Assembly: GCA_027487555.1 (NCBI GenBank)
Contig: JAIYDI010000029.1
Coordinates: forward strand, 186,001-250,000
Direction of reading: 5' to 3'
DNA length: 64,000 nucleotides
From: Hyphomicrobiales bacterium
GTDB taxonomy: Bacteria; Pseudomonadota; Alphaproteobacteria; Rhizobiales; Devosiaceae
Position numbers and translations under genes: made by a program. Positions 53,392 through 63,515 of the stretch are shown here, in pieces. The notes under the pieces are model-generated. The model was not told the origin of the DNA, ran no database searches, and was given only the letters and a program-made list of their open reading frames with translations. Within the stretch, counting starts at the first letter, position 1, and the number at the start of each line of letters is the position of its first letter.

Positions 53392-54795
53392 TCAGGACAG
53401 ATGCAAGTCGACAAAGCCGAGAATGGTTCCAGTCTCGGTGGGGCGCGATGTATCCACCCGCAACACCGGCCCAAGCGACATCGGCTCGGCGCGCGCCGCT
53501 AGGATCGCTAGCTCTTCGGCATATTCGGCGCCGGGATGGCCGGGCAGCCGCTCTCCGGAGCGGTCGCGGTAGCGACGTGCGATCAGCTCTGGCGAGGCGC
53601 TGCACCATATCTCGACGATTTCCGTCACGCCGCCCTTCTTTATCAGTTCGAGCAGAAGCTCTTTCGGCTGGAAGCCGAACCAGGCGTCCACAACGAATGT
53701 CGATCCCGCAGGCGCCGAGCCCATCACATCGAAGATAGCGCGATAGCTGGCCCGCCCGAGCACGCGGTTGAAGGGGCGGTCCACCGTCCCGATTTCCGCG
53801 AGGAACGGGTTCTTGATTGTATCGAGTGCGAGCAGAGGCCAGCGCTTCATGGCCGATATCAGCGCGGCGACAGTGCTCTTGCCGCTCGCCGGCACCCCAT
53901 TGACCATCACGATCCGATTGCCGCGCGGGCGAGTGCGCAGCGCAGCCAGTCCTGCGCCGATCACGCCTGCCGCATCGCCGAGAGTCGCGGCAACAACCGG
54001 GCACTCATACCAGGTTTCCCCTTTCGGCAGCAGCGAAAGTGCCTCCGCCGCCTCGCGGCCAAGCCCACCACCGAGAATGACCCGATCCGGGTCGAGGGTC
54101 GCGACGAGCGTGTCGACGGCGCGTTGCAGAGGCCGTGCCCAGTCCGAAAGCACGGCGCGCGCCGTGGCATCGCCGGCCTGGGCCCGGCCGATCAAGTGCT
54201 CCGCGCGGGTCCCGGTCGGGAAGCCGTAATGCGCTATATGCCCGCCCAATGCCGTGCCCGAACTCAGCGTCTCAACGCAGCCACGTCCTCCGCAGAGGCA
54301 TTGCGGGCCCTCGGGATCGACCACCACGTGACCCAGTTGCCCTGCGGTGGCCCGTCCGCGCAGCACCTTGCCATCCATCATGATGCCACCGCCAATGCCG
54401 GTACCGATGGTGAGCAGCACGAGGTTCCCGGCGCCTTTGCCGGCCCCGATTGCCGCTTCCGCGGTGAGCGCCATGCTGGCATCGTTGTCGAGAACGACCT
54501 TCCGGCCGGTCCGCGCGGTGATGGCCTCCGCCACATCACGCCCTGACAGATCCACATACCCGCCGGAGAGCACGCGATTGGCCGCTGTATCGACTCGACC
54601 CGGCACACCTATGCCGATAGCCGCCACGCCGGGTGCATCTACTAGATCGACAAGCGCGATCAGCCGCGTAATGACGGCATCGGGGTCAGAACTGCTCGCC
54701 TCACGGGCCTCGGCCTCGACCACTCCGGTCGTCGAAATGCGTGCGGCTCGAAGATGCGTGCCGCCAATATCAATTCCGATTGCCGTGCGCACCAT
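53392..54795 (-). CDS. ROK-family sugar kinase fused to a C-terminal P-loop kinase domain
   Basis: This 467-aa fusion is unusual. Residues 1-287 are a complete ROK kinase: GIDIGGTHLRAARI, VLDNDASMAL (catalytic Asp), TIGTGIGGGI and the zinc motif GHVVVDPEGPQCLCGGRGCVE. Residues about 290-467 form a second domain with a Walker A motif NGVPASGKSTVAAL (299-312) and a later VVDAWFGFQPKELL and CSASPELIARRYRDR, like small-molecule P-loop kinases. So the protein may phosphorylate a sugar at two sites or in two steps. It starts 4 bp downstream of the aldolase gene. The track start is 20 codons earlier and lies within the aldolase. Confidence 0.85.
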   Translation of the reverse strand: MVRTAIGIDIGGTHLRAARISTTGVVEAEAREASSSDPDAVITRLIALVDLVDAPGVAAIGIGVPGRVDTAANRVLSGGYVDLSGRDVAEAITARTGRKVVLDNDASMALTAEAAIGAGKGAGNLVLLTIGTGIGGGIMMDGKVLRGRATAGQLGHVVVDPEGPQCLCGGRGCVETLSSGTALGGHIAHYGFPTGTRAEHLIGRAQAGDATARAVLSDWARPLQRAVDTLVATLDPDRVILGGGLGREAAEALSLLPKGETWYECPVVAATLGDAAGVIGAGLAALRTRPRGNRIVMVNGVPASGKSTVAALISAMKRWPLLALDTIKNPFLAEIGTVDRPFNRVLGRASYRAIFDVMGSAPAGSTFVVDAWFGFQPKELLLELIKKGGVTEIVEIWCSASPELIARRYRDRSGERLPGHPGAEYAEELAILAARAEPMSLGPVLRVDTSRPTETGTILGFVDLHLS

Positions 54796-54799
54796 CGCC

Positions 54800-55714
54800 T
54801 CAGGCGGCGGCTGCTGCGGTACTGCGATGGCGCGCGATAACCGCCTGGATCTCACGCAGCCGGGGTACAGCCAGCGTTTCGAGCTTCTGGCGCGTCACGG
54901 TGCGGTCGAGCGAGATACAATCCTTCCACAGCGCGCGGCCGGCGATGACGCCCGATGCACCGTTGGCCATCGCAATATCGACCTGCGCAAGAAATGTTTC
55001 GTGGTTCACGCCGGCAGAGAGGACGGCCCAAGGCACGCTGCCCGAGATACGAGTGACTTCGGCGCAGGCCTCCGCCGAGCCGGGGAAGGGAATCTTCAGT
55101 ACTTTGGAGCCATGGTCGAGACATATCTGCGAGCCGCCGACGATGAGCTCACCCTGCTTTGCCTTGTAGGCGTCGTCGCTTTCCCCCTCGAGCTGGTAGG
55201 TCAGGAACTCGACGACCAGTAGCAGGTCCTCCCGGCCAAAATCCGTGACAACGTCGTCGAGGATGCGGAGGTTGTGCGCATTCGCAGCAGGCGTGTCCGA
55301 ACGCAGATAAATCATGATCTTGCCGCCGGTTGCGCCAAGCTTCCGCACCCTGCGCGCCGTGATGCCATCGACCAGCTTCGACAAGCGGTAACCTTCAGGT
55401 GACGTATCCCATCCGGAGGCATCAAGTCCGATCAGCAATGCGGTGTGCCGGTCGAGCACGCCATGGTCGACCAGTTGCGGCACCGCACAGATCGGGTCGA
55501 CGAGAACGCAGGAGGCCTTTGAGGCAAGATATCGGGTGATATCGGCCTTGGTATTGCCGAGCACATCGTTGCTGATCTGCTTCTGGACCTCGGGATCGGC
55601 GGAGAGCAAGGTGCGCATGCCGCCGCGCTGGTCGCAGGCGATCACCATCATCGCGCCGTCGTCGGCGCAGATCTGCTGGTAGCCGCGCCGCTCGGCCGTG
55701 GTCATGGCAGTCAT
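54800..55714 (-). CDS. Class I aldolase of the LacD/YihT family
   Basis: This 304-aa TIM-barrel protein resembles tagatose-1,6-bisphosphate aldolase (LacD) and sulfofructose-1-phosphate aldolase (YihT). Features are MMVIACDQRGGMRTLL at the N terminus, CVLVDPICAVPQL, a probable Schiff-base Lys in VLKIPFPGS (about residue 196) and the late WAVLSAGVNHETFLAQVDIAMANGASGVIAGRALWK, which matches both families closely. It would cleave a phosphorylated ketose into two three-carbon compounds. It precedes the fused ROK/P-loop kinase gene, so the two likely work together. ATG 55714 follows GGGAGA by 5 bases. Confidence 0.85.
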   Translation of the reverse strand: MTAMTTAERRGYQQICADDGAMMVIACDQRGGMRTLLSADPEVQKQISNDVLGNTKADITRYLASKASCVLVDPICAVPQLVDHGVLDRHTALLIGLDASGWDTSPEGYRLSKLVDGITARRVRKLGATGGKIMIYLRSDTPAANAHNLRILDDVVTDFGREDLLLVVEFLTYQLEGESDDAYKAKQGELIVGGSQICLDHGSKVLKIPFPGSAEACAEVTRISGSVPWAVLSAGVNHETFLAQVDIAMANGASGVIAGRALWKDCISLDRTVTRQKLETLAVPRLREIQAVIARHRSTAAAAA

Positions 55715-55816
55715 GGTGTTCTCCCATCGCGATCGCCGGCGTTGCCAAGGCAGGGGCGCCGCGTGCTAAGTTCTATCTGCTGCTCGCTGTATCATGTTGC
55801 AGAAAGGAATTTCAAG

Positions 55817-56758
55817 CTGTCGCTTCCGTTGTCGTCCGATCGGGCCGCCACCCGGGCTTTGCTGCATAGTGTCGCCAAGATGCACTACGAGGCCGATCTC
55901 AGCCAGGTCGATATCGCCAAGCGAATCGGCGTGTCGACGGCGACCGTGTCACGACTTTTACAGCGGGCTCGTGCCGAAGGCATCGTGCGCATCGAGATCG
56001 CTGACCTGGTCTCCTCTGACGATCTCGCGACACAGTTGACGGAGCGCCTTGGACTGAAACGCGCTGCCGTGGTTGAGGCGCCGGTCAATACTGCCCTGTC
56101 CGCACTTGCCGCTCCCGCGGGTACAATGCTGCTCGAGGCGGGGCTGCGCGCCGGGTCGGTGTTGGCGCTCGGGTGGGGCAGGGCCATCGCTGCGGTCGTC
56201 GCGGCAGGATTGCCAGCCATTCCGGGTGTGATAACCGTCCCTGCGACCGGTGGGATGCAGCAGCATGCGCCGCACTTCCAGGTCAACGAGTTTGTCCGGC
56301 GCGCCGCCGAGCAGACGGGCGGTACGCCGCATTTCGTCCACGCCCCATACCTGCCCTCAGCGCAGACACGGGACGCGTTTCTATCTGATGCGGCCATCGC
56401 AGACAGCGTTGCACTATGGGACAGGATCGACGTGGCGATAGTTGGCGTCGGTCTGCCGCATGCTGTCAATTCGCCTGAGGCCAGCGCCGCCACCCCAGAC
56501 GAGCAGGCGCTGCATGATGCGGCTGGCGACGTGATCCGGCACTATTTCGATGCAAATGGATGTCTCATCGAGTGGGAAGGCGAAAGCCGAATGATCGCGG
56601 TGTCCCCCGCGCAGCTCCGCCGCGTGCCGCTGGTCATCGGCGTGGCGGTTGGCGCCAACAAGGCCGCCGCCATCCTTGGCGCAGTGCGTGCCGGGTTCAT
56701 CAGCGCGCTCGTCACCGACATTCGAACGGCGGAAGCTGTGCTGGCTGCGGCGACATAG
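55817..56758 (+). CDS. SorC-family sugar-responsive regulator
   Basis: This protein of about 313 aa has an N-terminal helix-turn-helix (ALLHSVAKMHYEADLSQVDIAKRIGVSTATVSRLLQRARAEGIV) and a C-terminal SorC sugar-binding domain (LRAGSVLALGWGRAIAAVV, ATGGMQQ, VDVAIVGVGLP). It is divergent from the aldolase-kinase pair and upstream of the importer, so it probably controls both by binding a phosphorylated sugar. The start is uncertain. AAAGGA stands 8 bases before a CTG at 55817, while the track begins at TTG 55742 with residues unlike the family. Confidence 0.8.
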   Translation: MSLPLSSDRAATRALLHSVAKMHYEADLSQVDIAKRIGVSTATVSRLLQRARAEGIVRIEIADLVSSDDLATQLTERLGLKRAAVVEAPVNTALSALAAPAGTMLLEAGLRAGSVLALGWGRAIAAVVAAGLPAIPGVITVPATGGMQQHAPHFQVNEFVRRAAEQTGGTPHFVHAPYLPSAQTRDAFLSDAAIADSVALWDRIDVAIVGVGLPHAVNSPEASAATPDEQALHDAAGDVIRHYFDANGCLIEWEGESRMIAVSPAQLRRVPLVIGVAVGANKAAAILGAVRAGFISALVTDIRTAEAVLAAAT

Positions 56759-57110: not shown

Positions 57111-58106
57111 ATGGAGCGTCGTTCAGTATTCAAGGCTATGGCCGCAACCGGCCTTGCCGCAGCAGTCGGCGTGGCGGTGGGCGGTGTGGCCCGCGCGCAG
57201 GACAAGAAGTATACCATCGCCCTGATCCCCGGCCTCACCACCGATGCCTTCTACATCACCATGCGCAAGGGCGCGCAGGCTGCTGCCGACGCGCTCGGCG
57301 TAGAACTGGTGTTCCAGGGCGCACCGGACTTCAACCCCGTGACCCAGGTGCCGGTGCTCGATGCGGTGATCGCACGTGCGCCATCCGCCATCCTTATCGC
57401 GCCCACCGACAAGACCCAGTTGGTCGAGCCGCTGCGCAAGGCGAATGATGCCGGTATCCCGGTCATCACCGTCGACACGTTCATCGGCACCGGCAAGTAC
57501 CAGACCGGCGCAGGCGATGCGGATTTCCCGCTGTCCTACGTCGCATCCGACAACGTGCTGGGTGGCCGCATGGCTGCACGCGCGCTCGCCAACGCTATTG
57601 GCGGCAAGGGCAAGGTTTACGTCTCGAACGTAAAGCCGGGCATCTCCACCACCGATCAGCGCGAAGAAGGCTTCAAGGCGGAAATCGCCGAGAACTTCAA
57701 GGATATCGAAGTGCTGGAAACCCAGTACAATGACAACGACGCCAACAAGGCCGCGAGCCAGCTGCAGGCGGTGTTCGCCCGCAATGCCGACCTCAAGGGC
57801 GTGTTCGGGGCCAACCTGTTCTCCGCTCTGGGTGCCGGTAACGGTGTGCAGCAGGCCGGCCAGACGGGCGCGATCAAGGTCGTCGCCTTCGATGCTCCCA
57901 CCTCGATCGTTGACAACATCAACACTGGTCTTGTCGACGTTGCCATCGCGCAGCACCCGGCCGAAATCGGCTATTTCGGCCTCGTGTCGGCCTATGCCCA
58001 CCTGACCGGGCAGTCGATCCCCGTCTCCATCGGTACCGGCTTCACGATCATCGACAAGGCGAACGTCTCTGATCCAAACGTCGCTCGCTACATCTACTCC
58101 GACTGA
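57111..58106 (+). CDS. ABC sugar-binding protein, RbsB/FrcB-type
   Basis: This 331-aa periplasmic binding protein of the ribose/fructose type has a Tat- or Sec-like signal (MERRSVFKAMAATGLAAAVGVAVGG...ARAQ). The mature fold shows YTIALIPGLTTDAFYITMRKGAQAAADALG, FNPVTQVPVLDAVIARAPSAILIAP and the late IKVVAFDAPTSIVDNINTGLVDVAIAQHP, all typical for the family. It is the first gene of the importer operon and has a good GGAGG before its ATG. A terminator-like hairpin follows. It likely binds a hexose, pentose or polyol. Confidence 0.93.
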   Translation: MERRSVFKAMAATGLAAAVGVAVGGVARAQDKKYTIALIPGLTTDAFYITMRKGAQAAADALGVELVFQGAPDFNPVTQVPVLDAVIARAPSAILIAPTDKTQLVEPLRKANDAGIPVITVDTFIGTGKYQTGAGDADFPLSYVASDNVLGGRMAARALANAIGGKGKVYVSNVKPGISTTDQREEGFKAEIAENFKDIEVLETQYNDNDANKAASQLQAVFARNADLKGVFGANLFSALGAGNGVQQAGQTGAIKVVAFDAPTSIVDNINTGLVDVAIAQHPAEIGYFGLVSAYAHLTGQSIPVSIGTGFTIIDKANVSDPNVARYIYSD

Positions 58107-58282: not shown

Positions 58283-59344
58283 ATGACATCAGTTTCAACG
58301 CCGTCCGGTACGGCTTCGCACAAGGCGCCGCAGGCTGACCACGCAGCGCAGACAAAATCGCTGCTGCAGCGCATCGCCGATCTCAGGGCGTGGCTGTTCC
58401 TTGCCGCGCTGATCGCGGTCTTCGAGATCTGGGCGCGCGCCTCCTTTGGCGGAACGTTCATCCTCAACAGCTTCAACGTCCAATCAATCGCGATTTTCGC
58501 TGTGGCGCCGCTGTTGCTCGCCACCGGCCAGACCTTCGTGATCATATCGGGCGGCATCGATTTGTCGCTTGGCTTTATCATGGGCCTGGCAGCGGTGGTT
58601 TCCGCCCACACGATCAATGCGCTGACGCCTACGCTCGGGCTCGAGTTCGGAGTGCTCGGTGGCTTTCTCGTCGGCGTGCTCGTCGCGGGGGTGCCGGGTA
58701 TCATCAATGGCCTGCTGGTGTCGCGGCTGAAGGTTCCGCCCTTTATCGGTACGCTGGGGATGTTCGGCGTGGCGCGCGGGGTAGCGTTCCTGCTCGCGGG
58801 CGGCACAACTGTCCCGGTGTCGAACAGCTTCTTTGCAGCCATTGGCAACGGACGCTTCTACGGCATCCCCTACATCGTCATCATCGCGGCGATCTTCGTC
58901 GTGATCATGCATTACCTTCTGAGCCAGACGCGCTTCGGGCAGCACAATTACGCCATTGGCGCCAATGTTCAGGCGGCTCGCCGCGCCGGTATCGACATCA
59001 AGAGCCACCTGTTGAAGCTGTATATTCTCTCGGCGGCCTGTGCGGGTCTGGGCGGCGTGCTCTATTCGGCCCGGTTCAATGCCGGCGCAGCGCAAGCGGG
59101 CGAGCCGCTGCTGCTTGACTGTGTTGCGGCTGTAGTGATCGGCGGCGCCAGCCTGTTCGGTGGCTCGGGCACTATCTTTGGTACCGTCGCAGGGGCGCTC
59201 GTCATCGCCGTCATCCAGTACGGTCTCGTCTTCGTGAATGTCGAACCGTTCTGGCAATTCATCAGCGTCGGCGTCGTCATCATCATTTCCGTGCTCATCG
59301 ACCAGGCCCAACGCCGGTTCAGCGGAGGCCGCCAGGATGAATAA
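58283..59344 (+). CDS. ABC sugar permease, RbsC/FrcC-type
   Basis: This 353-aa membrane permease has a polar N-terminal tail and then about nine or ten hydrophobic segments. Family features are LLLATGQTFVIISGGIDLSLGFIMGL, GVPGIINGLLVSRLKVPPFIGTLGMFGVARG and the late VIGGASLFGGSGTIFGTVAGALVIAVIQYGL. It forms a homodimeric channel for the binding protein at 57111. Its end overlaps the ATPase start by 8 bases. Confidence 0.92.
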   Translation: MTSVSTPSGTASHKAPQADHAAQTKSLLQRIADLRAWLFLAALIAVFEIWARASFGGTFILNSFNVQSIAIFAVAPLLLATGQTFVIISGGIDLSLGFIMGLAAVVSAHTINALTPTLGLEFGVLGGFLVGVLVAGVPGIINGLLVSRLKVPPFIGTLGMFGVARGVAFLLAGGTTVPVSNSFFAAIGNGRFYGIPYIVIIAAIFVVIMHYLLSQTRFGQHNYAIGANVQAARRAGIDIKSHLLKLYILSAACAGLGGVLYSARFNAGAAQAGEPLLLDCVAAVVIGGASLFGGSGTIFGTVAGALVIAVIQYGLVFVNVEPFWQFISVGVVIIISVLIDQAQRRFSGGRQDE

Positions 59345-60086
59345 CTCCGTTCAGCCGCTCCTCGAAGTCAGCAATCTTTCCAAGCATTTCGGGGCTATCC
59401 GGGCGCTCGACGATTTCTCCATGCGTATCAATCCCGGGGAGGTTGTCGCGCTTGCGGGGGACAATGGCGCGGGCAAGACGACGCTGATCAAGACCATATC
59501 AGGCGTCTTCCGACCAACGGCCGGCGAGATCAAGCTCAAGGGCCAGCCGGTCGATTTCCAGACGCCGCAGGAGGCGCGCGACAAGGGGATCGAGACGATC
59601 TACCAGGATCTTGCGCTGGCCGATAACCTCACCATCGGCGCCAATATCTTCCTAGGGCGTGAGCCGATGAAGAAGGCCTTCGGATTCCTGCCGGTGCTGG
59701 ACCGCAAGAAGATGGCGGACGCCGCACGCGATACAATGGCCCTCCTGGATTTCCATGTGTCCCGCCTTGAGGCCCCGGTGAGCAATTTCTCGGGCGGCCA
59801 GCGGCAGGCGGTAGCCATCGGCCGGGCGGTGTACTGGGATGCGCAGATCCTCATCATGGACGAACCGACCGCCGCCCTGGGTGTTCCCGAGCAACGCAAA
59901 GTCATCCAGCTCATCCATCAGTTGAAGGCACAGGGCCGCGGCATCATTTTCATCTCGCACAATCTGCAGGATATTTTTGCAGTGTCCGACCGCATCATCG
60001 TGCTCAGGCGCGGCGTCACGGCAGGCGAGCGGAAGATTTCCGAGACCACGCATGACGAAGTCGTCAAGCTGATGGTGGGCGGCTGA
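59337..60086 (+). CDS. ABC ATPase, single-domain Rbs/Frc-type (FrcA-like)
   Basis: This 249-aa ATPase has one nucleotide-binding domain, unlike RbsA, which has two. It shows Walker A GDNGAGKTT, VDFQTPQEARDKGIETIYQDLALADNLT, signature FSGGQRQAVAIGRAVYW, Walker B LIMDEPTAALG and SHNLQDI. Single-domain ATPases of this kind are typical of the rhizobial fructose importer. ATG 59337 is preferred; the track start lies 33 codons earlier inside the permease gene. A hairpin follows. Confidence 0.92.
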   Translation: MNNSVQPLLEVSNLSKHFGAIRALDDFSMRINPGEVVALAGDNGAGKTTLIKTISGVFRPTAGEIKLKGQPVDFQTPQEARDKGIETIYQDLALADNLTIGANIFLGREPMKKAFGFLPVLDRKKMADAARDTMALLDFHVSRLEAPVSNFSGGQRQAVAIGRAVYWDAQILIMDEPTAALGVPEQRKVIQLIHQLKAQGRGIIFISHNLQDIFAVSDRIIVLRRGVTAGERKISETTHDEVVKLMVGG

Positions 60087-60136: not shown

Positions 60137-61237
60137 TCAGGCCGAGGCGCGCAGAACCAGGTCGCCGTTGAGCAGCACATGGCGCGATGGCGCTGCCTCC
60201 TGGGCGTCGGCAGCCTCGATCCGCTCGAACAGCATTTCCATCGCCAGCCGCGCCATTTCCGGGGTGTTCTGCTGCACTGTGGTCAGCGGTGGCCAGATGT
60301 ACTCGGAAAAGGGCTGGTTATCGTGTCCAGCAACCCGCAGTTCGCAATCCGGCGTGATGCCGATACGGCGGCCCGCCTGCTGAAGCGCCGCCAGCACGCC
60401 GAACGCGACGCGATCGTTGCCGCAAAGGACGATCCGGGTGGGGAAGCCGCCTTCGCGCAGCAGCCGGTTGGTTTCGTCAAAGGCGTAGCGCTCAAAATCC
60501 CAGGTGGTCGAACGCTGGAGCGGAACCAGTACTGGTTCGAGCCCGCGACGCCGCATTGTCGCGATATAGGCCTCACGCCGCTCGGTGGTGTTCGAGTTCA
60601 CGCCGGGCATGTCGAAGTAGCAGGGCCGGTCGCCGAAGCGTGTGAGGTAGTCGGTGATCAACGCGATCGACTGCGCGTTGTTTGTGCCGACGAACGCCTC
60701 CTCGGCGTCGAAGGGCGCGTCGACAAAGACCACTGGATTCGCCCGTGCAATGGCCTTGATCCGGTCGCGGTGCGGGGCGTCGCCGCCCACCGGCACCATG
60801 ATCACGCCTGCTGCATTGAGCGAGGTCAGCGTTTCGATGGCCTCGGCTTCGAGCTCCGCCTTGCCGTCCGAAGAAAACACGAAGGGCAGGTAACCGGCAC
60901 TCGTTGCCTCGAGTTCCAGCCGACGGCGCAGGCCCATGTAGAACGGGTCCATCGAGTTCGGGAAGATCAGCCCGATGATCTTGGCGCGACGCCGGTTGAG
61001 GTTTACCGCGAAGAGGTTCGGGCGGAACCCGGTTTCCTTGAGGCCGACCTCGATCTTTTCGCGGACCCGCGGGCGCACCGAGCCTGGGTCCTGGAAGAAT
61101 TTCGAAACAGTCGGGCGCGACAGGCCCACAGCCTCGGCAAACTGCTCCATGGTGCGCACAGGCTTTCGGGTCATGCGGGTCGCGGGCTCCGGTCGTGGGA
61201 AAGCTGGGGTAGGGCGCGTGCTGTCGTCAAAAGCCAT
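60137..61237 (-). CDS. LacI-family regulator of the ketose kinase operon
   Basis: This repressor of about 366 aa has a helix-turn-helix (TMEQFAEAVGLSRPTVSKFFQDPGSVRPRVREKIEVGLKETGFRPN) preceded by a short variable tail, and a sugar-binding domain (IIGLIFPNSMDPFYMGLRRRLELEATSAGY, VAGHDNQPFSEYIWPPLTTVQQ). It is divergent from the PfkB-KbaZ genes and has a palindromic site in the gap, so it probably controls them and perhaps its own gene. ATG 61237 is preferred; the track begins at a GTG two codons earlier, and a later ATG at 61174 is possible. Confidence 0.87.
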   Translation of the reverse strand: MAFDDSTRPTPAFPRPEPATRMTRKPVRTMEQFAEAVGLSRPTVSKFFQDPGSVRPRVREKIEVGLKETGFRPNLFAVNLNRRRAKIIGLIFPNSMDPFYMGLRRRLELEATSAGYLPFVFSSDGKAELEAEAIETLTSLNAAGVIMVPVGGDAPHRDRIKAIARANPVVFVDAPFDAEEAFVGTNNAQSIALITDYLTRFGDRPCYFDMPGVNSNTTERREAYIATMRRRGLEPVLVPLQRSTTWDFERYAFDETNRLLREGGFPTRIVLCGNDRVAFGVLAALQQAGRRIGITPDCELRVAGHDNQPFSEYIWPPLTTVQQNTPEMARLAMEMLFERIEAADAQEAAPSRHVLLNGDLVLRASA

Positions 61238-61317: not shown

Positions 61318-62268
61318 ATGGCTGCCACAATCGGCTCAATGGGCGAGCTTCTTGTTGAGTTCGTATGCCTCAAGCAAGGCACGCACCACATCGTTGCCGC
61401 CACCTATGAAGGTCCGTTCCCAAGTGGTGCGCCGGCCATTTTCATCGATCAGGCGTCGCGGGTCGGAGCAAGTACGATCTTTCTGGGTGCTGTCGGTGAG
61501 GATGCCTTTGGCGAAGTACTGAAGCGGCGCCTTTCAAAGGTGGGGGTCGATATGGGCCTCGTTGCCACGATAGAGGGTGTACCGACCGGCTCGGCCTTTG
61601 TTGGCTACAGTCCCGATGGAACGCGCGATTTCGTTTTCAACATCGCGCATTCCGCTGCGGCGCGGTTCCCGACCGGCCCCGACGTGGTCGATAGGCTGAG
61701 GGCGTCGAGCCTTCGTGTCTTCCACATTTCCGGCTCGACCCTCGGCAATAGGGATATGGCGCGCGCCGCCCTCGATATCTGCCGGGCGCTGCATGCGTCC
61801 GGCGTCGCGATTTCCTTCGACCCCAATATCCGCAAGGAGCTGATGGGCGAACAGGGCTACATGGATATCGTGCGGTCCCTCACGGGTCTCGCGCGCTATT
61901 TCCTGCCCAGCGCCGAAGATGCCGAGGTGCTGTTCCCCGGCGAGGGGTTCGAGAGCTTCGCGCGACGCCTCCGCGCCGCTGGTGCCGAACATGTGGTGCT
62001 GAAGCGCGGCGCGCTTGGCTGCATGGCACTTGCGCCGGATGGCAAGGTCGTGTCCCTGCCTGCCCACGCGGTCGACGTGATCGACCCGACCGGCGCGGGC
62101 GACTGCTTCTGTGGAACCTTTGTCGCGCTCGTCACGAAGGGCCGAAGCATGGAGGACGCGCTGCGGCTCGCCAATGCGGCCGGTGCCCTTGCGGTTACGC
62201 GTCGCGGGCCGATGGAGGGCAATTCGACGCTGGCAGAGATTGCCGTTTTCCTCGGCGGTGCAGGGTGA
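61318..62268 (+). CDS. PfkB-family carbohydrate kinase
   Basis: This 316-aa kinase of the ribokinase/PfkB family phosphorylates a sugar with ATP. It opens with ATIGSMGELLVEFV, has FIDQASRVGASTIFLGAVGEDAFGEVLKRRLSKVGVD and the second signature DVIDPTGAGDCFCGTFVAL (the catalytic Asp in GAGD). In agrobacterial galactitol metabolism a PfkB kinase beside a GatZ-type protein phosphorylates tagatose, so tagatose or a similar ketose is plausible. The ATG at 61318 follows AAGGGG by 5 bases; the track start is two codons earlier. Confidence 0.9.
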   Translation: MAATIGSMGELLVEFVCLKQGTHHIVAATYEGPFPSGAPAIFIDQASRVGASTIFLGAVGEDAFGEVLKRRLSKVGVDMGLVATIEGVPTGSAFVGYSPDGTRDFVFNIAHSAAARFPTGPDVVDRLRASSLRVFHISGSTLGNRDMARAALDICRALHASGVAISFDPNIRKELMGEQGYMDIVRSLTGLARYFLPSAEDAEVLFPGEGFESFARRLRAAGAEHVVLKRGALGCMALAPDGKVVSLPAHAVDVIDPTGAGDCFCGTFVALVTKGRSMEDALRLANAAGALAVTRRGPMEGNSTLAEIAVFLGGAG

Positions 62269-63515
62269 GCGAGGTTCTCGGACAGATTGTCGCCGCCAAC
62301 CGCCAAGGCGCGCCGGTCGGCATTCCCTCCTGGTGCACGGCCCATCCGGAGACACTCTTGGCGATCTTTTCCGCCTATCGCGGCGATCAAGGGCCGATCC
62401 TCGTCGAGGCGACCTGCAATCAGGTCAACCAGGTTGGCGGCTATACCGGCATGACGCCTGCCGGCTTTCGTGCCTTCGTCACCGATCTTGCCCAGCGCGC
62501 CGGAATCGAGCCCGGCCGCCTCATCCTAGGGGGCGATCATCTCGGGCCAAATCCGTGGCGCAAGGAACCTGCTGAGATTGCTATGGCAAAGGCCTGCTCC
62601 CTTGTCGCCGCCTATGTAGGCGCCGGGTTCAGGAAGATTCATCTCGACGCGTCGATGGCCTGCGCCGATGACGGTGTGCTTTCAGAGGAAACCATCGCCG
62701 ACCGTGCCGCCGAACTCTGCGCGGTCGCTGAACAAGCCGCACCGGGCCAGCCGCTCTATGTCATTGGCACGGAGGTGCCAATCCCCGGTGGCGAGACAGC
62801 GGTACTCGACCACCTCGCTGTCACCACCCCGGAGGCGGTACAACGCACTTTCGCCCTGCACGAGTCCGCCTTCCGCATCGCCGGTGTCGCGGCAGCGCTC
62901 GACCGCGTCATTGGCATGGTGGTGCAGCCGGGCGTCGATTTCGGTAATGATCAGGTCTTTGCGTTCTCCTCCGACAGGGCAAGGCACCTTGCGGCTACGG
63001 TTCCCCTCTTGCCTGGTTTCGCCTTCGAGGCACATTCCACCGACTACCAATCCGCAGCCGGGCTCAGCGGTCTCGTCGCCGCGCATTTCCCCATACTCAA
63101 GGTCGGGCCGGAACTCACCTTCGCTTATCGGCAGGCAGTTGTCGCGCTTGCCCATATAGAAGCGGCCGTGGCGCCACCGGAGCCGTCGCGGCTCATCGAC
63201 ATTATCGAGGCCGAGATGCTGGCCTCTCCCGGCGATTGGCGCGCCTATGTCGCTCCAGGTCCGCGCGAGGCCGCGATGCGGCTTTATGGCCTCTCCGACC
63301 GGGTCCGCTACTATTGGCCTAGGCCGGCGATCCAGGCGGCGCTGGCGAAGCTGCGCGCCAATCTCGTCGCCCATCCGCCCGAGCCCGGCCTTGTGGCGCA
63401 ATATCTCGGCACGCTGGTCGACGCGTCCGTTCCGCCAGCTGAACTCATGGACCGGGCCATCGATGCCAATGTCGGCGCCGTGATCGCCAAGTACCGCGCC
63501 GCCACAGGCAGCTGA
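62265..63515 (+). CDS. kbaZ: KbaZ/GatZ-family protein (tagatose-bisphosphate aldolase subunit or tagatose-6-phosphate epimerase)
   Basis: This 416-aa protein matches the KbaZ/GatZ family: GIPSWCTAHPETLLAIFSAYRGD, VEATCNQVNQVGGYTGMTP, LILGGDHLGPNPWRKEP, AGFRKIHLDASMACADD and GFAFEAHSTDYQSA. In enteric bacteria it stabilises the class II tagatose-bisphosphate aldolase subunit KbaY/GatY; in agrobacteria a related protein is reported to be a tagatose-6-phosphate 4-epimerase. No KbaY gene is present here, which favours the second role. The GTG start overlaps the kinase stop (GTGA). Confidence 0.88.
   Translation: MSEVLGQIVAANRQGAPVGIPSWCTAHPETLLAIFSAYRGDQGPILVEATCNQVNQVGGYTGMTPAGFRAFVTDLAQRAGIEPGRLILGGDHLGPNPWRKEPAEIAMAKACSLVAAYVGAGFRKIHLDASMACADDGVLSEETIADRAAELCAVAEQAAPGQPLYVIGTEVPIPGGETAVLDHLAVTTPEAVQRTFALHESAFRIAGVAAALDRVIGMVVQPGVDFGNDQVFAFSSDRARHLAATVPLLPGFAFEAHSTDYQSAAGLSGLVAAHFPILKVGPELTFAYRQAVVALAHIEAAVAPPEPSRLIDIIEAEMLASPGDWRAYVAPGPREAAMRLYGLSDRVRYYWPRPAIQAALAKLRANLVAHPPEPGLVAQYLGTLVDASVPPAELMDRAIDANVGAVIAKYRAATGS

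Follow-up and report, generated by a model that had tools for sequence, protein, structure and literature searches.

The window, by which we mean the entire stretch of 64,000 nucleotides that was analysed, carries two adjacent minus-strand genes. The first of these (53392..54795, with its ATG at 54795) encodes a 467 aa protein in which a ROK sugar kinase is fused to an AAA_33 P-loop kinase domain, and the second, located upstream (54800..55714), encodes a 304 aa class I aldolase of the DeoC/LacD type. Four nucleotides lie between the aldolase stop codon and the kinase ATG, as a previous sequence-only reading of this DNA had reported. In the NCBI annotation the fusion is labelled 'ROK family protein' only and the aldolase 'tagatose-bisphosphate aldolase'.

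Concerning the ROK domain (residues 6-283; 53947..54780, minus strand), a Pfam profile search returned PF00480 at 175 bits (E=3e-51) against a curated cut-off of 22.9, and the characteristic motifs were identified as DIGGT (DxGGT), the Asn-Asp pair N104 D105 and the zinc ligands H156, C166, C168 and C173. The DxGGT motif, N104-D105 and the zinc site, GHx(n)CxCGxxGC, are invariant in an alignment of 32 fused proteins, in agreement with the complete ROK domain, including the catalytic Asp and zinc site, that had been claimed for this protein. A ROK repressor was ruled out, as there is no N-terminal HTH match and the ATP-binding motif begins at residue 9. The nearest solved structures are the ROK glucokinases 2qm1, 3vov and 3vgk, and the ROK part fell under every equivalog cut-off in an NCBIfam profile search.

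The separate C-terminal domain with a Walker A motif, also proposed previously, could be substantiated: PF13671 (AAA_33) matches residues 296-416 (53548..53910, minus strand) at 30.4 bits when the C-terminal part is searched, and at 27.8 bits in the whole protein, narrowly over the curated cut-off of 27, with the entire domain extending to the stop codon and the sequence GVPASGKST starting at residue 300. An enteric orthologue attains just 16 bits with the same profile. An assignment as chloramphenicol phosphotransferase was rejected, its profile (PF07931) scoring 19.8-20.2 bits where the cut-off is 22. In an alignment of 115 P-loop domains derived from fused, split and standalone proteins (domain numbering plus 290 gives the numbering of the fusion), the invariant residues are the G and K of Walker A (GVPASGKS, residues 300-307; 53875..53898, minus strand), D35, K38, R50, R54, E105, W107, C108, R118, R122, R126 and H130. 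D35, which is D325 of the fusion (53821..53823, minus strand), follows strand 2 in the sequence LDTIKNPF and is, from this position, a candidate catalytic base; three of the invariant arginines (R408, R412 and R416 of the fusion; 53548..53574, minus strand) belong to the lid, and two more (R340 and R344) could serve in holding a phosphorylated substrate.

The P-loop domain, modelled alone with AlphaFold2 (pLDDT 89.6), finds its best structural match in 2rhm, a 'putative kinase' (TM 0.82), followed by O-phosphoseryl-tRNA kinase, adenylate and gluconate kinases and PFK-2, with the 6-phosphofructo-2-kinase PFKFB3 at rank 33. Model and alignment together thus describe a kinase fold with a Walker A motif, an Arg-rich lid and, behind strand 2, an invariant Asp; a lid and a catalytic base were the features on which the kinase assignment of the sequence-only reading had been made to depend. 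The model of the whole fusion consists of two confident domains (pLDDT 90.5), whose placement relative to one another is not fixed (pTM 0.65).

The aldolase scores 60.7 bits with PF01791 (curated cut-off 23.8), and DQR 28-30, E169, K207 and G259-R260 are invariant in its alignments. K207 aligns with the Schiff-base Lys of YihT and LacD, and E169 is the aligned acidic residue, so that these two positions would putatively provide class I aldolase chemistry, and the earlier class I assignment of the upstream gene is upheld. Its closest relatives in the PDB are YihT (6e-23) and LacD (7e-18); as it is slightly closer to YihT, the substrate of which carries a C1 phosphate alone, homology does not demand a bisphosphate substrate. 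The profiles for LacD tagatose-bisphosphate aldolase (TIGR01232; 54.4 bits, cut-off 432) and PRK12858 (151.5 bits, cut-off 184) were not reached by the aldolase.

A divergent gene for a SorC-family regulator (55742..56758, plus strand; PF04198, 3e-49) is kept beside the aldolase across loci. Its listed start is a TTG, the open reading frame has an N-terminal extension relative to its homologues, and the true start probably lies some 36 codons downstream. There follow, on the plus strand, genes for an ABC transporter composed of an RbsB-type sugar-binding protein (57111..58106; PF13407), an RbsC-type sugar permease (58283..59344; PF02653) and an RbsA-type ATPase with one nucleotide-binding domain (59340..60086; PF00005). 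This ATPase of approximately 248 aa (249 aa in its orthologues) replaces the usual two-domain protein of approximately 500 aa and is conserved across the clusters. A LacI-family regulator (60137..61237, minus strand), identified from gene calls and phmmer, is kept in part of the clusters. Further along the plus strand, a tagatose-kinase-like PfkB kinase (61318..62268; NF049991 at 288 bits, below the cut-off of 420) and a GatZ/KbaZ homologue (62265..63515; TIGR02810 at 484 bits, below the cut-off of 568.8) are encoded by overlapping genes and likely represent a ketose kinase and ketose-6-phosphate C4-epimerase pair. They are optional neighbours, PfkB being found in a minority of clusters. The E. 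coli GatZ and KbaZ proteins possess C4-epimerase activity on F6P/T6P (PMC11907403), and it is therefore possible that the pair in the window handles tagatose.

The window ends within a ROK-type regulator gene that follows the GatZ/KbaZ homologue and is complete in locus L012. Just past the window end (L012:2868-7199), genes for a Gfo/Idh dehydrogenase, a TIM-barrel epimerase, an alpha/beta hydrolase, a ribulose-phosphate-3-epimerase-like protein and a second ROK kinase form a conserved set which accompanies the fusion cluster in several rhizobia, and the cluster version of Rhizobium sp. SL42 includes a PdxJ-like gene, annotated as pyridoxine 5'-phosphate synthase, and a HAD hydrolase (L186:8294-9040). 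Such neighbours do not identify the sugar: PfkB and GatZ hint at tagatose, while the RPE-like, TIM-barrel and second ROK proteins hint at another ketose. Extra kinases, epimerases or dehydrogenases (PfkB, GatZ, RPE-like, second ROK) occur in 29 of the 86 ROK-type loci, whereas in the other 57 none of the accessory sugar enzymes searched for, other than ROK, P-loop kinase and aldolase, was detected. Consequently, neither gene set defines the substrate, and the ROK kinase, P-loop kinase and aldolase may constitute a complete pathway.

A scan of public genomes with the P-loop domain yielded 80 loci. Further genera of Devosiaceae carry the fusion, as do dozens of other alphaproteobacteria, among them Mesorhizobium, Rhizobium, Agrobacterium vitis, Aureimonas and Rhodobacterales. 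This recurrence, in relatives and across genera, excludes both a chance fusion and the sequencing artefact that the sequence-only reading had named as the event that would undo it. Co-occurrence with the aldolase was examined in 398 Hyphomicrobiales genomes at thresholds of E<=1e-15 for the P-loop domain and E<=1e-60 for the aldolase orthologue, and exactly the same 33 genomes were found to carry both, approximately 1-2 kb apart in each; one genome holds two of each. The association of P-loop domain and aldolase is thereby extended from a single locus to every P-loop-bearing genome of this set. Of the 119 loci, 118 have the two genes co-directional; L048, which does not, starts at a contig end. 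With regard to architecture, 68 of the 115 copies are fused to ROK, 24 are split and 23 are without ROK, the last group including L048 at its contig edge. The split form has separate, adjacent ROK and P-loop genes, frequently with a short overlap, and its 24 members form one clade (SH-aLRT 98) in a rapidly computed tree, several branches of which are long. On this tree the four architectures require four changes where the minimum is three.

Within the Enterobacterales (Rahnella, Brenneria, Serratia, Rouxiella, Hafnia, Erwinia, Sodalis and Klebsiella) the P-loop protein is a free-standing one with no ROK partner, and its operons also encode PTS EIIA, EIIB and a UlaA-like EIIC, the P-loop and EIIA genes overlapping in some enterics. 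The operons of L038 (13032-13337) and L175 (8658-8927) also encode small proteins of 89-101 aa, the L038 one being weakly TPR-like. Across the 119 loci, ROK is found in 86 and the PTS in 29, never both together, and the P-loop kinase of all 29 PTS loci is without ROK; the remaining four loci either are truncated by a contig end or have neither of the two. Since the loci are related by descent, the ratio of 86 to 29 does not amount to 115 independent events. The PTS phosphorylates its sugar during uptake, and the exchange would most simply be read as ROK acting as the first kinase where uptake is through the ABC transporter.

The aldolase is exchanged as well. A scan of 228 Enterobacterales genomes detected the P-loop kinase in eight and the class I aldolase in two of these, the other six having, in the P-loop kinase operon, a class II enzyme from the ketose-bisphosphate aldolase family, unrelated to class I. 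Among the PTS loci, seven have the class II enzyme in place of class I and keep the P-loop kinase; that of L175 scores 261 bits with TIGR00167 (cut-off 215.6). In four genomes whose EIIC is more distant, the PTS and the class II aldolase are combined with a different AAA_33 kinase (PF13671, 1e-10) that compares weakly, by profile, with the P-loop family of the fusion, and no PfkA or ROK was found in these four operons. This kinase is encoded at L214:5838-6449, with equivalents in L215-L217, and the EIIA there is fused to a PRD/Mga-type regulator. What stays constant is the pairing of a P-loop kinase with a neighbouring ketose-phosphate aldolase.

Sequence comparison thus delivers domains and motifs, gene order, co-occurrence, a split clade and the exchanges of ROK for PTS and of one aldolase class for another. 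Taken together, we consider it on balance probable that the fusion is a two-step ketose kinase, in which ROK acts before the P-loop domain phosphorylates C1 and the adjacent aldolase cleaves the bisphosphate. In this scheme, the ABC transporter would import an unphosphorylated ketose, which the ROK domain would convert to a ketose monophosphate, most likely at C6 judging from the ROK family; a second phosphate, placed most likely at C1, would come from the C-terminal AAA_33 domain, and the resulting ketose bisphosphate would be split by the class I aldolase into dihydroxyacetone phosphate (DHAP) and an aldehyde phosphate such as glyceraldehyde-3-phosphate, with the SorC protein probably acting as a sugar-phosphate-responsive regulator. 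Known ROK sugar kinases phosphorylate C6 and DHAP-releasing aldolases require a C1 phosphate, so that a C1 phosphorylation step is needed in between, for which the P-loop domain is the obvious candidate. Of the bifunctional, aldolase-coupled kinase put forward by the sequence-only reading, the coupling finds good support in the 33/33 co-occurrence, the split-gene clade and the PTS in ROK's place, and the two activities are still predicted ones; as to its alternatives of one sugar or two intermediates, a single sugar phosphorylated twice would be the best reading. More specifically, and tentatively, with our confidence about evenly divided, we propose that AAA_33 acts as a ketose-6-phosphate 1-kinase with a P-loop fold, and that with ROK a single polypeptide would convert free ketose to the 1,6-bisphosphate in an undescribed ketose pathway of plant- and soil-associated rhizobia and, with the PTS substituting for ROK, of enterobacteria. 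To our knowledge, the P-loop fold has not been described for ketose-6-phosphate 1-kinase activity.

The main rival employs the same parts in another order: ROK or the PTS would generate a ketose-1-phosphate, cleavage by the aldolase would give DHAP together with an unphosphorylated aldehyde, for instance glyceraldehyde, which the P-loop domain would then phosphorylate as an aldehyde (triose) kinase, in parallel with the fructose-1-phosphate route of the liver. It fits the 33/33 co-occurrence, the PTS-for-ROK exchange and the aldolase-class exchange equally well, and the substrate of YihT, the nearest solved aldolase relative, has no C6 phosphate. We nevertheless regard it as unlikely. Within the mechanistic argument it is disfavoured only by ROK precedent, as known ROK kinases act at C6 of hexoses or fructose, which would leave DHAP without its C1 phosphate; for the V. 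cholerae fructokinase, fructose-6-kinase activity is reported (PMC6240065). From the comparison of loci, the substitute class II aldolase belongs to a ketose-bisphosphate family, and a free aldehyde would not be expected where an intact PfkA-like kinase is present.

Such PfkA-like genes bear on the two-step ketose kinase itself. A search for PF00365 phosphofructokinases found none in the genome of the window, which is 94% complete, nor in 8 of the 12 relatives covered, so that C1 phosphorylation by PfkA would not be expected in these. In 12 PTS loci, however, a PfkA-like gene adjoins that of the P-loop kinase, and this coexistence in some enterics does not fit the C1-kinase reading. Three of these proteins (L043:11256-12248, L064:11243-12235 and L098:11236-12225) have GGGGS where PfkA has GGDGS, perhaps through decay or as an inactive or altered enzyme. 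Three more, from class II aldolase loci and compared in full, keep GGDGS and TIDND and could perform the second phosphorylation there themselves; if active, they would render the P-loop kinase of those loci redundant or otherwise employed. One such employment would be regulatory or moonlighting, the P-loop domain producing a sugar phosphate that serves as a signal, in the manner of the P-loop enzyme PFK-2 with its product fructose-2,6-bisphosphate, or modifying a PTS or pathway protein. PFKFB3 at rank 33 of the structural matches, and those enterics that possess a PfkA-like kinase and in which the P-loop and EIIA genes overlap, are consistent with this role, which we hold to be improbable given that the ROK fusion and the aldolase tie persist in genomes that have neither PTS nor PfkA and hence offer no target of this kind. 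A further reading, quite improbable in our estimation, has the two domains serving two different ketoses or epimers from one transporter, each feeding the aldolase rather than acting in series. The 29 ROK-type loci with additional sugar genes would suggest the mixed diet that it requires, whereas the 57 loci devoid of them, and a PTS that replaces ROK alone, are better accommodated by the serial order.

The sequence-only reading knew of no described pathway with this fusion, and a literature search with thin coverage of subscription papers, many of which lay outside it, likewise found no description of a ROK–AAA_33 fusion or of AAA_33 proteins with aldolases. The genes listed for the psicose locus of K. 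pneumoniae are those of a permease, ribokinase, allulose-6-P epimerase, aldolase and regulator, with no PTS or AAA_33 gene among them (PMC6020474). If true, the two-step ketose kinase would assign a function to an uncharacterised P-loop kinase subfamily, the nearest structure of which is 2rhm, and would provide a ketose bisphosphate route for bacteria without PfkA, including the organism from which the window derives. The fused, split, PTS-replaced and aldolase-swapped versions represent natural controls of one pathway.

The ROK domain shares its full extent, ATP motif, Asn-Asp pair and zinc site with the sugar kinases of PF00480 (glucokinase, fructokinase and D-allose kinase), from which it differs by its fusion to a second kinase. 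The P-loop domain resembles 2rhm (Caur_3907, an AAA_33/CPT-like putative kinase; 26% identity) in fold, Walker A, the Asp after strand 2 and an Arg lid with a GHPG motif, and its aldolase link and ROK fusion are new features. In the LacC/LacD tagatose-6-phosphate pathway, two phosphorylations, by the PTS and then a kinase, likewise precede a class I ketose-bisphosphate aldolase, although LacC is a ribokinase-fold PfkB enzyme and the second kinase here is a P-loop protein. The YihV/YihT sulfofructose branch of sulfoglycolysis follows the same logic of a kinase and a class I aldolase, but YihV is a PfkB kinase yielding a 1-phosphate only. PfkA with a class II aldolase would correspond to the same predicted reaction type on an unrelated fold. 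What is novel in the system is accordingly not its enzyme families, which are known, but their new and conserved combination, with a predicted activity.
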